Below are positions 14,128-21,769 of a stretch of 53,350 nt of DNA, piece after piece. Position numbers and translations under genes: made by a program. The stretch is taken from contig DASTFB010000001.1 in NCBI GenBank assembly GCA_035709005.1, forward strand, positions 1 to 53,350, read 5' to 3'. The notes beneath the pieces were generated by a model. It was given only the letters and a program-made list of their open reading frames with translations. It searched no databases and had not been told where the DNA came from. Origin of the DNA: Candidatus Methylomirabilota bacterium. GTDB taxonomy: Bacteria; Methylomirabilota; Methylomirabilia; Rokubacteriales; CSP1-6. Within the stretch, counting starts at the first letter, position 1. The number at the start of each line of letters is the position of its first letter.

Positions 14128-15408
14128 ATGGCTGAAGACATCCGGGCCACGGTGAAAGACAAGTATGGTAAGGCCGCGCTCCGCGTGAGCCAGAGCGCGG
14201 AGGGTTGTTGCAGCAGCGTCGGGTCGGCCTGCGATCCCATCACCGCCGATCTCTACCAGGCCGACGAGACCGCCGGGCTGCCTGCGGAAGCCGTGCAGGC
14301 CTCCCTGGGCTGTGGCAATCCGACCGCGCTGGCCCACCTGGCGGCCGGCGAAACCGTGCTCGACCTGGGCTCGGGCGGTGGCATCGACGTGCTGCTGTCC
14401 GCCCGGCGGGTGGGCTCGACGGGCAAAGCCTACGGCCTCGACATGACCGACGAGATGCTCGCTTTGGCCCGGGACAACGCCGCCCGGGCCGGCGTCGACA
14501 ACGTGGAGTTCCTCAAGGGTCACATCGAGGAGATCCCGCTGCCCGACGGCGCCGTCGACGTGGTCATCTCCAACTGCGTGATCAACCTCTCACCCGACAA
14601 GGACCGCGTCCTGGCCGAGGCGTTCCGGGTCCTCAAGCCGGGCGGGCGCTTCGCCGTGTCCGACGTGGTGGTGCGCGGCCCGGTGCCCGAGGAGATCCGC
14701 CGCAGCGTGGAGCTGTGGATCGGGTGCATCGCCGGCGCCCTGGACGAGGGCGAGTATCGCGCCAAGCTGGCCCGCGCGGGCTTCGTGGACGTCGACGTGG
14801 AGCCCACCCGGATCTACCGCGCGTCGGACGCGGGCGAGGCCTTGGCGGCGGCCGGCCTCGACGCCGATGCGATCGCGCCGCTGGTGGACGGCCGCTTCAT
14901 GAGCGCCTTCGTCCGCGCCCGCAAGCCCGCGACCGCTGGAGACGCGGTGCCCATCACGCCCCGGATACACGTGCACATGCACGTGTCGGACCTGGCCAAG
15001 AGTCGGGCATTCTACGAGCGCTTCTTCGGGACCGCCCCGGTCAAGGTCAAGCCGGGCTACGTCAAGTTCCTGCCCCCCTGGGGGCCGCTCAACCTGGCCA
15101 TGTCCCAGGGAGCGCGCGCCGAGGGCGGGCACGTCGACCACATGGGTGTGCAGCTCGGCTCCCGCGACGCCGTCGTCCGCGAGCTGGCGCGCGTCAAGGC
15201 CGCCGGGCTGCCGGTGCGCGAGGAGCACGGCGTCGATTGCTGCCACGCCAACCAGGACAAGTTCTGGGTGGAGGACCCCGACGGCGTGCAGTGGGAGGTC
15301 TACGTCCTCAATCACGACCTGGAGGACGAATCCCCCGCCGTCGGCTGCCGGCCGCAGGGGCTCAGGGTGGTGCCGTCGGGCTCGTGCTGCGGCCCCGCGA
15401 CGCCGTGA
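14128..15408 (+). CDS. ArsM-ArsI fusion: As(III) methyltransferase with C-As lyase domain
   Basis: 426 aa. Residues 1-265 are an ArsM SAM-dependent arsenite methyltransferase: VKDKYGKAA start, cysteines C27/C28, C62 (SLGCGNP), C150 (SNCVINL) and C200 (WIGCIAG), SAM loop DLGSGGG (79-85). Residues 278-400 are an ArsI-type extradiol-fold (VOC) domain that in other bacteria breaks the C-As bond of trivalent methylarsenicals: metal ligands H281, H338, E390 and substrate pair C371-C372 in DCCHANQDKFW. A further CC (420-421) ends the protein. Both active sites look complete and the frame is unbroken. Opposite activities in one chain are odd (see findings). 15 nt after arsR with AGGAGG, so same operon. 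Confidence 0.88.
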   Translation: MAEDIRATVKDKYGKAALRVSQSAEGCCSSVGSACDPITADLYQADETAGLPAEAVQASLGCGNPTALAHLAAGETVLDLGSGGGIDVLLSARRVGSTGKAYGLDMTDEMLALARDNAARAGVDNVEFLKGHIEEIPLPDGAVDVVISNCVINLSPDKDRVLAEAFRVLKPGGRFAVSDVVVRGPVPEEIRRSVELWIGCIAGALDEGEYRAKLARAGFVDVDVEPTRIYRASDAGEALAAAGLDADAIAPLVDGRFMSAFVRARKPATAGDAVPITPRIHVHMHVSDLAKSRAFYERFFGTAPVKVKPGYVKFLPPWGPLNLAMSQGARAEGGHVDHMGVQLGSRDAVVRELARVKAAGLPVREEHGVDCCHANQDKFWVEDPDGVQWEVYVLNHDLEDESPAVGCRPQGLRVVPSGSCCGPATP

Positions 15409-17407: not shown

Positions 17408-18352
17408 GTGAGCCAGGCCATCTCAGCCAAGCTGATCGAGGACACGGCCCGCGAGCTGATGGCCCGCGCGGCGATCGACATTCCGCCCGACTACCGGGAC
17501 GGCGTCCGCCAGGCCCGCGATCGCGAGACGGGCAAGCTCGCCCGGTTCGTGCTCACCGAGATGCTGGCCAACTGGGAGCTGGCCACGGCCGAGCGCCGGC
17601 CGATGTGCGCCGACACGGGGCTGCCCCGCTACTACGTCCGCGTGGGCAACGAGGCCGTGATCGAGGGCGGCATGGTGGCCCTGGAGCGGGTCCTGCGCCG
17701 GGCGACCGCCGAGGCGACCGCCACCATCCCGCTACGTCCCAACCGCGTGCATCCGCTCACCCGTGCCGACCACAACAACAACGTGGGCGTGCATGCGCCC
17801 GAGATCACCTACGCCTTCGAGCCAGGCTGGGACTTTGTCGACCTGACCACGGTGCACAAGGGCGGGCTCTTCGGGACGGACTACCGGATGCTCTTTCCTG
17901 CCGATGGCCTGGGTGGCATCAAGCGCTTCTTCCTCGACACGCTCGTGCAGTTCGGGCGGCGGGGCCTGGCCTGCCAGCCGGCCATCGTGGGCGTGGGCAT
18001 CGGCGGGGCCAAGGACACGTGCATGCGGCTGGGCAAGGAAGCGGCGTGCCTGCGGGCGGTGGGCAGTCGCAATCCCGAGCCCGAGATCGCCGCGCTGGAA
18101 GACGAGCTCACCCGGCTGGGCAACTGGGTCGGGATCGGGGCCATGGGCTTCGCCGGCACCTCGCTGGTCGTGGCCACGCACGTCGAGGTCGCGTACACCC
18201 ACACGGGCGGCATGCCGATCGCCATTCACGCCTTCTGCCTGTCGTCGCGCCGGGCCACCGCGCGCATCCACGGCGATGGCCGCGTCGAGTTCCGGACCGA
18301 CCCGCAGTGGTTCACCGACTTCTACCGCCGCACCACGATCGACTGGCCATGA
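17408..18352 (+). CDS. class I fumarase/L-tartrate dehydratase, alpha subunit
   Basis: 314-aa Fe-S hydro-lyase alpha subunit (Fumerase family). Candidate [4Fe-4S] ligands are C67 (MCADTG), C205 (GGAKDTC) and C277 (HAFC). GVGIGG and NNNVG segments are typical. With the beta subunit it dehydrates malate to fumarate, or tartrate to oxaloacetate; sequence cannot separate these. Start GTG 17408; TAGACT at 17393-17398 ends 9 nt before it. It is followed by a 66-bp dispersed repeat and then the beta gene. Confidence 0.85.
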   Translation: MSQAISAKLIEDTARELMARAAIDIPPDYRDGVRQARDRETGKLARFVLTEMLANWELATAERRPMCADTGLPRYYVRVGNEAVIEGGMVALERVLRRATAEATATIPLRPNRVHPLTRADHNNNVGVHAPEITYAFEPGWDFVDLTTVHKGGLFGTDYRMLFPADGLGGIKRFFLDTLVQFGRRGLACQPAIVGVGIGGAKDTCMRLGKEAACLRAVGSRNPEPEIAALEDELTRLGNWVGIGAMGFAGTSLVVATHVEVAYTHTGGMPIAIHAFCLSSRRATARIHGDGRVEFRTDPQWFTDFYRRTTIDWP

Positions 18353-18418: not shown

Positions 18419-18432
18419 TAAACAATGTCGCC

Positions 18433-19089
18433 ATGGACGAGGTGCGGTTGTCCACCCCGGTGGCCGACGCCGATCTCGACCGTCTCAAGCTCGGCGACGT
18501 CGTCTTTCTGGACGGGTTCGTCTACACGGCGCGCGAGGGCGTCTACCGGAAGGTCGTGGACGAGGGACGGGGGCTGCCGGACGGCGTCCGCCAGCTCACC
18601 AACGTGAACTTCCACTGCTCGCCGGCCGCGACGCGACGGCCGGACGGCCGCTATTCCGTGGAGGCGGTCACGGCCACCGCCTCCTTCCGCTTCGGCCGCT
18701 CGATGCCCCGGTGGTTCGAGCAGTCGGGAGCCAAGGTCATCGTCGGCAAGGCCGGGCTCAGCGAGCTGGCCTACCGCGAGTGGTTCGTGCCGCACGGGGC
18801 GGTCTACCTCACCACCGTCGGGTACGGGCTGGGGGCGGCCTACGGCAAGTGCATCAAGGGCGTGCGCGAGGTGCACTGGCTGCGGGAGCTCGGCATCGCC
18901 CAGGCCCTGTGGGTGCTGGAGGTCGAACGGTTGGGACCCTTCCTGGTGGAAGGCGATCGGGCCGGCCGGAGCCTCTTCGCGCTCGCCAACCAGGAGATCA
19001 ATCATCGTCTGCACGAGGTGTACCGGGGGCTGCCGCGGTACTCGATGAGCCGCTTCGGCGAGGCCACCCCCGAGCAGGAGATCGTCTGA
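18433..19089 (+). CDS. class I fumarase/L-tartrate dehydratase, beta subunit
   Basis: 218 aa, matching the C-terminal (beta) half of class I fumarase: LKLGDVVFLDGFVYTARE, an NFHCSPA segment, GKAGLS and AVYLTTVGYGLGAAYGK. It forms the second half of the hydro-lyase active site. I take ATG 18433 because the frame upstream to ATG 18349 runs through the 66-bp repeat and adds 28 low-complexity residues (PPRTSNSPPSD...). If 18349 is used, the genes overlap by ATGA and the protein has 246 aa. No Shine-Dalgarno sequence is visible at 18433. Confidence 0.8.
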   Translation: MDEVRLSTPVADADLDRLKLGDVVFLDGFVYTAREGVYRKVVDEGRGLPDGVRQLTNVNFHCSPAATRRPDGRYSVEAVTATASFRFGRSMPRWFEQSGAKVIVGKAGLSELAYREWFVPHGAVYLTTVGYGLGAAYGKCIKGVREVHWLRELGIAQALWVLEVERLGPFLVEGDRAGRSLFALANQEINHRLHEVYRGLPRYSMSRFGEATPEQEIV

Positions 19090-19105
19090 ACGGGAGGACA
19101 ACGCC

Positions 19106-19669
19106 ATGACACACGCGAGTGTCGCCCGCTTGAAGCCCGTCGAGGAGCCAGGACTGATCCTCCAGGTGTTCTATGCCATCGGTCGCAAGCTGTTCGGCCA
19201 GGTTCCGACGCCGGAAAAGATCATGGCTCACCGGCCCGCGCTGTTGCTCGGCATCGGCGGCTTCTACGGCGCGATCGAGTGGTTCGGCACCCTCGACGGG
19301 CGCCTGCGCGCGCTGCTCCAGCTGCACGTCGCCCGTCTCTCTCGGACGCCGTACTGAATGGACATCCGCCACGCCGTGGGCGTGGAGGCGGGGGTCCCCG
19401 AGGCGACGCTGGCCGCGCTCGATGACTACCCGACGAGCCCGCTCTTCACGGAGCGGGAACGGGCCGCCCTCGAGCTCTGCGAACGGATGACCCGCGACGA
19501 CCTGGAGGTCTCCGACGCCTGCTTCGCCCGGCTCCGCGAGCACTTCTCGGAGCCGGAGGTGCTGGACGTGGTTGCCGCGGTGGGCTATCAGATCTTCGCC
19601 AGCAAGCTCGCCAAGGCCCTCGCGCTCGCGCCGCAGGGCTTCACGGCTGCGGCGCAGAAGGTCGTGTAA
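19106..19669 (+). CDS. AhpD/carboxymuconolactone decarboxylase-like selenoprotein (TGA = Sec84)
   Basis: Read through one in-frame TGA (19355-19357), this is a normal 187-aa AhpD/CMD-family protein. Codons 1-83 carry the family N-terminus (KIMAHRPALLLG, LDGRLRALLQLHVARL) and 85-187 continue MDIRHAVGVEAG. In AhpD the aligned segment is C-x-x-C-x-D; here it reads T81-P-Y-U84-M-D, so the UGA replaces the second (resolving/peroxidatic) cysteine. A SECIS-like hairpin starts 11 nt after the UGA. Expected role: peroxide or thiol redox in the cytoplasm. GGGAGG precedes ATG 19106, 16 nt after the fumarase gene. Alternative: a recent nonsense mutation or two small genes. Selenocysteine machinery is not in this window. 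Confidence 0.8.
19369..19385 (+). promoter_or_regulatory. bacterial SECIS-like hairpin for the AhpD-like gene
   Basis: CCACGC (19369-19374) pairs with GCGTGG (19380-19385) around the 5-nt loop CGTGG. The loop begins 18 nt after the UGA and has G as its second base, fitting the usual bacterial SECIS rule (loop about 16-37 nt downstream, G in the first two loop bases). A lower extension is possible with a bulge. Confidence 0.65.
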
Positions 19670-19737: not shown

Positions 19738-20265
19738 ATGCCCTCGCGCCGGTGGATCGGTCTCGCGCTGCTGCTGGGGATCGGGCTGGGTGGAATCGCG
19801 CCCGTCGGCGCCGACACTCTGACGCTCGGGAGTCCCGCGCCCGACATCGCCGGCGGGCCGTGGATCAACAGCGCGCCGCTCACCCTGGCCGGCCTGCGTG
19901 GCCGGGTGGTGCTCGTCGAGTTCTGGACGTACGGCTGAATCAACTGCAAGCGGGTGGTCCCGCAGTTGCGGGGCTGGCACGATCGATACCGCGCGGGCGG
20001 GTTCACCATCGTGGGCGTGCACTCCCCGGAATTTTTCTGGGAGCGCCGGTATGAGCGCGTGCTCGCGGCCAGCCGCGAGCTCTCGATCCTCTATCCGGTC
20101 GTGCAGGACAACGACCACGCCCTCTGGCGGCGCTGGGGCGTGTGGGCGTGGCCGACGACCTTTCTGGTCGACCGCCGCGGGATCGTTCGCTACCGGCACA
20201 TCGGGGAGGGGGCGGTCGAGGAGACCGAAGCCATGATCCGCCGGCTGCTGGCCGAGCCGGGCTGA
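19738..20265 (+). CDS. exported thioredoxin-like selenoprotein (U67-I-N-C70)
   Basis: 175 aa when the in-frame TGA at 19936-19938 is read as selenocysteine. Signal peptide about 1-25, then TlpA/DsbE-like thioredoxin fold: PAPDIAGGPW, VVLVEFWTYG-U-INCKRVVPQL, FTIVGVHSPEF, and the cis-Pro region WPTTFLVDRRG. The usual motif in this family is FWTY-C-INC, so UGA replaces exactly the first (nucleophilic) cysteine of CxxC, giving UxxC. A two-part SECIS-like hairpin follows immediately. Role: periplasmic thiol-disulfide exchange. ATG 19738 starts the signal peptide; GTG 19708 is a longer option. Its TGA stop is 1 nt from the histidine kinase start. Confidence 0.85.
19941..19968 (+). promoter_or_regulatory. 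bacterial SECIS-like hairpin for the thioredoxin-like gene
   Basis: Lower stem CAACT (19941-19945)/AGTTG (19964-19968), 4-nt bulge GCAA, upper stem GCGGG (19950-19954)/CCCGC (19959-19963), loop TGGT. The loop starts 17 nt after the UGA and has G in its second position. Confidence 0.75.
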
Positions 20266-20266
20266 G

Positions 20267-21769
20267 GTGGCGGCGCCCCTTCCGCGCTCGGCCCTGCTCG
20301 CGCTGGCGGCCGTCGTCGTTCCCGCCGCGATCGTCGCCGGGCTGGGCTATCTCTCGCTTCGCCAGTGGCAGACCTCGGCCGAGCTCCTGTTCCGCGAGCA
20401 GGCCCGGGACATGGCCTCCATGGCCGTCGACAAGATCGAGATGGTCGTCCGGCAGGCCGATGACGAGATTCTCTCCCGTGTGGAGCACGCGCTGGGAGCC
20501 CCCGACCGCCGCCAGGCGCTCGATCGGCTCCGGGCCGAGACCCCGCTGCTCCAGAGCCTCGTGCTCCTCGACCGCGCCGGCCGCGCGCTCTACCCCTCGG
20601 GGCCCGGCGAGGACGAGGCGCTGGCGCGCGCGGTGCCGGCGGCGGTCGTTCAGGGGCTGTGGGAGCGCGGCGGCCGCCGGCACTTCGTGACCGACGAGCA
20701 GCCGGGGCTCGCCGCGATCCTCCGCGGCCCCGCGGGCGCGCCAGTGCTGGCCGCCTTCACCCGACGCCCGGATGCGTTGCATGCTGTCTTCGACAGCACC
20801 ATCAAGCCGCTGGAGGCGCTGACGATCTGCGCCATCGTGGACGAGCGAGGCCGGACGATCTACAGCAAGGAGCCGCTCGAGCACGCCGAGCTCATCGCCG
20901 CCGTCCCCTTCCGCGAGGGCTTCCCTCGCTGGCGCATCGCCCTCTACCAGCCCGAGGGGCCCTCGCCCCGCCAGGCCGTGCAGCGCCAGGTGGCCATCTT
21001 CACCGCGGCTTTCGGCGTCCTGTTCCTGGTCGTGGTGGCCGGCCTGGTGGCCACCTACCGGCTGGTGCGGCGGGAGACGGAGATGGCGCGCCTCAAGGCC
21101 GACTTCGTGGCCAACGTCTCTCACGATCTCAAGACGCCGCTCTCGGTGATCCGGATGTTCGGCGAGACCCTGGAAATGGGCCGCCTGCCCGACGAGGCGG
21201 CGCGCCAGGAGTACTACCATGTGATCACCCGAGAGACCGAGCGGCTCACGCGCCTGATCGACAACGTCCTGGACTTCTCGCGGATCGAGAGCGGCCGGCG
21301 CACCTATGTGCCCGTGCCCACCGCCGTGGAGCCCCTCGTGCGGGAGAGCGTGGAGGGCTTCAGCGTGCCCCTGGCCCAGCAGGGGTTCAAGGTCGAAGTG
21401 CAGGTGGCGCCGGACCTCCCCGAGGTGCCTCTGGACGCCGACGCCGTCGCGCAGGCGCTGGCCAATCTGGTCGACAATGCCATCAAGTACTCGGCGGAGC
21501 GGAAATCGCTACGCGTCGAGGCCCGGGCGGCTGAGGGACATCTGGTGCTGGAGGTGGCCGACGAGGGGATCGGCATCCCGCGCGAGGAGCAGTCGCGGAT
21601 CTTCGACAAGTTCTACCGGGTGGGCCGCAGCGAGACGCAGGGCCGGCGCGGCAGCGGCGTGGGGCTGGCCCTGGTCCGGCACGTCGCCGAAGCCCATGGC
21701 GGGCGCGTGACGGTGGAAAGCCGCCCCGGCGAGGGTAGCCGGTTCACCCTGTGGTTCCCGCTCGCCTGA
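20267..21769 (+). CDS. membrane sensor histidine kinase
   Basis: 500 aa. Two membrane spans (about 8-30 and 243-264) flank a periplasmic sensor domain of about 210 residues that I do not recognise. The kinase core is complete: H-box H286 in VSHDLKTPL, N-box N404 (LVDNAIKYS), G1 DEGIGIP (432-438), F-box FDKFYR, G2 GSGVGLALV (462-470). No HAMP domain is obvious. GTG 20267 lies 1 nt after the selenoprotein stop, so it may share that transcript and sense periplasmic redox state. No response regulator is adjacent; the downstream activator lacks a receiver domain. Confidence 0.88.
   Translation: MAAPLPRSALLALAAVVVPAAIVAGLGYLSLRQWQTSAELLFREQARDMASMAVDKIEMVVRQADDEILSRVEHALGAPDRRQALDRLRAETPLLQSLVLLDRAGRALYPSGPGEDEALARAVPAAVVQGLWERGGRRHFVTDEQPGLAAILRGPAGAPVLAAFTRRPDALHAVFDSTIKPLEALTICAIVDERGRTIYSKEPLEHAELIAAVPFREGFPRWRIALYQPEGPSPRQAVQRQVAIFTAAFGVLFLVVVAGLVATYRLVRRETEMARLKADFVANVSHDLKTPLSVIRMFGETLEMGRLPDEAARQEYYHVITRETERLTRLIDNVLDFSRIESGRRTYVPVPTAVEPLVRESVEGFSVPLAQQGFKVEVQVAPDLPEVPLDADAVAQALANLVDNAIKYSAERKSLRVEARAAEGHLVLEVADEGIGIPREEQSRIFDKFYRVGRSETQGRRGSGVGLALVRHVAEAHGGRVTVESRPGEGSRFTLWFPLA

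Follow-up and report, generated by a model that had tools for sequence, protein, structure and literature searches.

An AhpD-like gene of Methylomirabilota with an in-frame TGA at a redox-cysteine position, probably a selenoprotein of a clade without the first cysteine of the CxxC motif

Does a TGA in the middle of an AhpD-like reading frame of a Rokubacteriales genome end the protein, or is it read as an amino acid, and if so, what does that residue do? The gene lies in a 53,350-nt stretch of the draft genome of a Candidatus Methylomirabilota bacterium (assembly GCA_035709005.1, contig DASTFB010000001.1, positions 1 to 53,350), hereafter called the window. Its main features are the following.

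19092 to 19097, + strand: GGGAGG, a Shine-Dalgarno-like (ribosome-binding-like) motif seen in the sequence, 8 nt 5' of the ATG
19106 to 19669, + strand: AhpD/CMD-fold putative selenoprotein gene of the (T/S/A)-x-Y-U subfamily, 187 aa with Sec84
19355 to 19357, + strand: in-frame TGA, the putative Sec84 codon, aligned with the second Cys of CxxC

The frame from 19106 to 19669 translates into 187 aa, with a single internal TGA as codon 84 and a terminal TAA. The Pfam CMD domain (PF02627) matches residues 47-124 and spans the TGA (26.1 bits against a cut-off of 23). The initial annotation had described one TGA splitting an otherwise uninterrupted AhpD/CMD protein, which both the frame and the domain match bear out. 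The comparisons set out below make it almost certain that TGA84 stands for selenocysteine.

Searched in six frames, 95 genomes of the phylum yielded 18 orthologs that were 54-65% identical to the gene in the window. TGA stood at codon 84 in all 19 aligned sequences (the window's gene and the 18 orthologs), and TAA, TAG or a sense codon in none of them. The 157 flanking codons (65 upstream, 92 downstream) of these 19 sequences held no further stop. Mean pN/pS across them was 0.41 before the TGA and 0.46 after it, so that purifying selection is about equally strong on the two sides. In a draft metagenome assembly, a single TGA could by itself point to a pseudogene or a sequencing error, but the same TGA recurs in 18 more genes from many genera and studies that carry no other lesions, and pN/pS is about equal on its two sides. 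The orthologs refute this explanation, whose probability is close to nil. Stops at other positions or other stop codons in relatives had been named beforehand as the pattern of a pseudogene; none were found, and the retention of TGA in 18 of 18 orthologs free of other stops shows no such pattern.

In the tree, the 19 sequences formed a single branch (support 100/99) apart from the CPFU proteins. A profile search of a species-representative genome collection recovered the same proteins almost only in metagenome-assembled genomes (MAGs) of Candidatus Rokuibacteriota/NC10, which we take to be Methylomirabilota; a query of that collection with a single protein gave no match, unlike the profile search. 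The AhpD-like clade with Sec84 belongs to Rokubacteria of soil and groundwater. As the orthologs all come from one phylum, the TGA may have few independent origins. Two orthologs (L057 and L058) lie in MAGs labelled Deltaproteobacteria and Actinobacteria, and the near-identity of L058 to the Rokuibacteriota copy in genome G052 (L035) suggests a mis-binned contig. The searches returned no viral or phage relatives of the AhpD-like protein; its plasmid relatives were distant, and the two that were inspected were haloarchaeal Cys proteins.

The genome that contains the window (4.59 Mb, 134 contigs, 95% complete) was searched for the selenocysteine machinery, whose absence the initial annotation had said would speak against a selenoprotein. 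All four components were present: selA (596 bits), selB (361 bits), a tRNA-Sec with anticodon TCA (UCA) near selA on contig 64, and selD (336 bits; C87:189561-190505, L017). The selD frame has one TGA, and SelD of this genome is itself probably a Sec-containing protein. Among the 95 genomes of the phylum selA was found in 83, and in 50 of the 53 high-quality ones.

Directly downstream of the TGA the sequence can fold into a hairpin.

19369 to 19385, + strand: bacterial SECIS-type hairpin with a 7-bp stem, CCACGCC (19369-19375), loop GTG, GGCGTGG (19379-19385)

Its loop starts 18 nt after TGA84. A 6-bp hairpin at the distance expected for bacterial SECIS elements, with G at loop position 2, had been predicted earlier; the hairpin and its distance held up, with 7 bp, and the position of the G did not, since formation of the closing C-G pair leaves GTG as the loop, with the G at position 1; only opening of that pair would shift it to position 2. 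The features of a bacterial SECIS element, a conserved hairpin directly 3' of the TGA with a G within the first two loop positions, are thus present. The window has 1119 TGA trinucleotides; within that distance range, 0.5% of them have a hairpin of at least 6 Watson-Crick pairs with G in the first two loop positions, and 1.6% when G-U is allowed and at least 7 pairs are required. The single-sequence fold of 45 nt had a z of -2.0, which is only moderately unusual, and a scan of the window at the Rfam gathering thresholds gave no matches. By itself, the hairpin of the window is suggestive; its strength comes from the comparative evidence.

The inner 6 bp (19370-19375 with 19379-19384) are standard pairs in all 19 sequences, and in 18 of them the loop of the top-scoring hairpin begins 18 nt past the TGA; in the remaining one (L031) the scan scored another stem higher, and the same 6-bp hairpin is present in the minimum-energy fold. 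The second stem pair is A-U in 10, G-U in 2 and G-C in 7 sequences. The covariation score was reached by none of 500 shuffles and by no slide, and RNAalifold predicted the same stem independently. Because the changed bases sit in codons 89 and 93, the change in the stem entails a paired amino-acid change: His89/Val93 in 10 sequences, Arg89/Val93 in the 2 with G-U, and Arg89/Ala93 in 7. The clade is an example of amino-acid pairs shifting jointly to preserve an RNA hairpin, and the change from A-U to G-C probably happened once or a few times. Within the stem, Ala90 is encoded by GCC and Gly92 by GGC in every one of the 19 sequences, and the third base varies in the codons for Arg88, Val91 and Gly96, just outside the stem or in the loop. 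The CPFU paralogs form a hairpin at the same distance from a different sequence (GCATCC-CGTG-GGATGC), and a CEFU protein of genome G060 has a third hairpin sequence (GCTGCC-GTG-GGCAGC).

The TGA is followed directly by an ATG in 17 of the 19 sequences, and the list of open reading frames of the window contains both 19106-19357 and 19358-19669, as would be expected if translation ended at the TGA and restarted at the adjoining ATG (TGA-ATG) to give two polypeptides. Two orthologs, however, have ACG or ATC after the TGA, the CPFU paralogs have ATT or ATC there, no Shine-Dalgarno sequence precedes the adjoining ATG, and neither TAA nor TAG occurs at the stop site in any of the 19 sequences. Reinitiation would also cut the predicted active-site helix (residues 82-94), and it leaves both the hairpin and the Cys in relatives unexplained. 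We regard it as very improbable.

The Cys in relatives was located by alignment. U84 fell on the second Cys of PA0269 (GCAYC), on the Cys of relatives with CEYC and CQYC motifs, and on that of haloarchaeal CGFC proteins, whose identity is 31-34% along almost the entire length. The expectation that cysteine homologues would carry Cys at residue 84 was therefore confirmed, as was the placement of the stop at the second Cys of CxxC. In a bacterial selenoprotein gene the in-frame TGA is expected to coincide with a functional Cys in homologues, as it does here. Two of the CGFC homologues, on Halocatena and Halomontanus plasmids (L116, L117), have a helix-turn-helix gene on one side and a DoxX-family gene on the other. 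One paralog (L074, G043:C518) has the motif C-P-C-S, with Ser at the Sec position and Cys one residue earlier.

The AhpD-like gene is flanked by the following genes.

17408 to 18352, + strand: fumarase/tartrate dehydratase alpha subunit (Fe-S type), a syntenic neighbour
18430 to 19089, + strand: fumarase/tartrate dehydratase beta subunit region, start codon not fixed
19738 to 20265, + strand: second putative selenoprotein gene, TlpA/ResA-like (WTYGUINC), with an N-terminal signal-like hydrophobic segment
19936 to 19938, + strand: TGA, the putative Sec67 codon of the TlpA-like protein
20267 to 21769, + strand: sensor histidine kinase, a syntenic neighbour

The end of the beta subunit and the ATG of the AhpD-like gene are 16 bp apart. 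The TlpA-like gene starts 68 bp 3' of the AhpD-like gene, and its TGA is kept across most of the phylum. Fourteen CMD-domain matches were found in the window's own genome, and in eight of them a TGA stands at a redox-Cys position and is followed by a hairpin with G in its loop. The motifs of these eight genes are GCRYU, NCFDU, HCSYU, GCPFU, DCLYU, ACQYU, NTHU and RTPYU; the seven besides the gene in the window lie on contigs C21, C80, C10, C19, C23, C84 and C83 (L105, L106, L108-L110, L112, L113). More than half of the CMD genes of one genome hence look like selenoprotein genes, which standard annotation would split or miss. The product of the single-gene hairpin odds was not taken as a probability, since the paralogs share ancestry, and among the nine genes two (L108 and the TlpA-like gene) lack six Watson-Crick pairs of the scored form.

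That several genes of the genome apparently read through TGA would also be expected if the codon had been reassigned genome-wide, or were read by a suppressor tRNA instead of as Sec. TGA nevertheless terminates the fumarase beta subunit (19087-19089) and the TlpA-like gene (20263-20265), and acts as a terminator in orthologs too, and its use as an ordinary terminator here excludes wholesale reassignment. The internal TGAs, moreover, sit at redox-Cys positions, and tRNA-Sec (TCA) is present with selA, selB and selD. This explanation is thus given almost no credence.

The order fumarase, AhpD-like gene, TlpA-like gene and kinase was also found in L053 and L066, and the AhpD-like gene and the kinase occur together in L057 and L068; the order was not found in the soil clade. 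As it is not kept across the clade, a functional link to the neighbours is weak. The TlpA-like selenoprotein was considered as a direct reductant of the AhpD-like protein and set aside: the TlpA-like protein has a signal-like N-terminus, which would make it extracytoplasmic, and the AhpD-like protein has none. The TlpA-like gene of L068 (L068:6158-6568) is without the stretch of the Sec motif (VEFW-NVIPQ) and without a second stretch, through in-frame deletions or an assembly fault. Elsewhere in the window, 14128-15408 encodes an ArsM (arsenite methyltransferase) fused to an ArsI/CadI-type VOC domain, both above the NCBIfam cut-offs.

The structure of the AhpD-like protein was predicted with AlphaFold2 from 17 sequences. 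The model was all helical, with a mean pLDDT of 77 and a core above 90; blocks of residues 51-170 reached 81-98, and the ends and residues 28-39 were poor. The best solved matches in Foldseek were AhpD-like (3c1l, 6ohj, which is the debrominase Bmp8, 2ijc, which is PA0269, 6k40 and 2pfx), and matches to CMD/AhpD-like structures had TM scores of up to 0.78 on the query length. The PF02627 domain and the predicted all-helical fold place the protein in the CMD/AhpD-like superfamily. Helix 82-94 is predicted to start two residues before Sec84, and helix 137-144 two before Cys139. The proton relay of M. tuberculosis AhpD consists of Glu118, Cys130, His132, Cys133 and His137, that of P. aeruginosa PA0269 of Glu36, Cys48, Tyr50, Cys51 and His55, and both Cys and the last His were called invariant among the structures compared (PMC3141380). 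The corresponding codons in the window, and that of a further Cys, are as follows.

19310 to 19312, + strand: Ala69, site of the AhpD relay Glu
19346 to 19348, + strand: Thr81, site of the AhpD first Cys (T/S/A/V in the clade)
19367 to 19369, + strand: Arg88, site of the AhpD relay His
19520 to 19522, + strand: Cys139, the only conserved Cys besides Sec84

The Thr in place of the first Cys had been called unusual from the window's gene, and the alignment extends this to the whole clade: the first Cys is present in 0 of 19 members against 16 of 16 other CMD relatives, and the Cys-x-x-Cys of the AhpD peroxidase is replaced by T/S/A/V-x-Y-U in all 19. The relay Glu site holds Ala in 18 members and Glu in L030; the relay His site holds Arg in 18 and Gln in L033, and His in none. 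The CPFU set likewise has neither relay Glu nor relay His, so that losing the relay is not in itself linked to losing the first Cys. A scan of the alignment for conserved Cys returned only two clade columns, Sec84 and Cys139. Cys139 is invariant and specific to the clade (19 of 19 members against 0 of 16 other CMD relatives). This complementary pattern, first Cys lost and Cys139 gained, leads us to propose tentatively that Cys139 might be the resolving residue for Sec84, in place of the first Cys; the pattern is only suggestive, as such a presence and absence amounts to one evolutionary event.

Without first Cys, relay Glu and relay His, the textbook AhpD mechanism is impossible here, and what is left is Tyr and a (seleno)cysteine. 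The best explanation as a whole, to which we assign a probability of roughly 85%, is a selenoprotein whose nucleophile would be Sec84, with either Cys139 or an external thiol resolving it. The ribosome would insert Sec at UGA84 by means of the genome's own SelA, SelB, SelC and SelD, directed by the downstream hairpin, and Sec84 would come to lie at the N-terminus of the active-site helix, at the site of the second Cys of AhpD. A selenol has a low pKa and is ionised at neutral pH, so that a proton relay for deprotonating a thiol would be dispensable. Sec84 would then attack an oxidised substrate, either a peroxide or a disulfide, with a Bmp8-like dehalogenation also possible, and the oxidised Sec84 may be released by an external thiol or by Cys139, either within one subunit or from an adjacent one. 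The protein is most likely a cytoplasmic thiol/peroxide oxidoreductase with Sec as nucleophile, where the catalytic role and the peroxide-type substrate are inferred.

The selenoprotein could instead have a different chemistry, as a one-Sec enzyme that works with external thiols, for example a reductive dehalogenase like Bmp8, with Cys139 in a structural role only. Comparisons of sequence and of fold both place Bmp8 (6ohj/6ohi) among the best matches, and the loss of CxxC and of the relay residues speaks against a classical peroxidase. Many AhpD-fold proteins match equally well, however, no genes for halogenated compounds were seen adjoining, and an invariant Cys139 in precisely the clade devoid of the first Cys points to a role for it. 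We therefore consider this alternative unlikely. As regards the reading with Sec84 as nucleophile, a CMD-fold selenoenzyme clade may, in its more specific and still doubtful form, have dropped the vicinal Cys and the proton relay and shifted the resolving Cys to residue 139, giving a Sec84-Cys139 selenenylsulfide pair. If true, this would be an active site rewired in a way that selenium made possible, and the clade offers a natural experiment on what selenium lets an enzyme lose. PMC13188914, with reference to Deng et al. 2026, reports a Methylomirabilota MAG with 63 predicted selenoproteins.

AhpD-like and CMD-like selenoproteins as such were already known, as the initial annotation had stated for the AhpD-like ones: they have been catalogued, all as CxxU, in the NF041047 GSU3128 family, the TIGR01926-type AhpD-like, the PF02627 CMD-like and the NF041238 groups (PMC13188914, PMC2398784). 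The protein from the window scored 13.7 bits for NF041047 against a cut-off of 110, and was likewise far below the cut-off for TIGR01926. Among the NCBIfam models it matched NF053654 (GroundWater_YciW) best, along almost the entire length, with 105 bits against a cut-off of 310, and all 19 clade members match this model (best E-value 6.3e-35). NF053654 members above the cut-off were found in three genomes of the phylum, and the one in G060 reads C-E-F-U. In the literature examined, whose coverage is incomplete, we found no account of AhpD-like selenoproteins that form a clade lacking the first Cys, and the deep-Sep paper mentions neither AhpD nor this phylum.

The protein shares with M. tuberculosis AhpD and PA0269 the fold, the position of U84 (second Cys, Cys133/Cys51) and Tyr83 (Tyr50), and differs from them at the site of Glu118/Glu36, which is Ala in the clade (Glu in L030), at that of Cys130/Cys48, which is Ser, Thr, Ala or Val, and at that of His137/His55, which is Arg (Gln in L033). 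With Bmp8, the tetrabromopyrrole debrominase (6ohj), it has in common the CMD fold, a similar size and a TM score of about 0.75, but Bmp8 is a Cys enzyme that dehalogenates, and the protein from the window is likened to it by sequence and fold. Like the YciW-related (seleno)proteins of NF053654, it occurs in the same phylum with a TGA, whereas its clade is separate on the tree. Like the catalogued AhpD-like selenoproteins, it combines the CMD/AhpD fold with Sec at the second redox position and a SECIS hairpin just downstream. Unlike those CxxU proteins, the clade has T/S/A/V at the first position, always lacks the relay His and has Cys139 fixed; with Sec alone in the motif and a different fixed Cys, it almost certainly represents a real selenoprotein of a new form.
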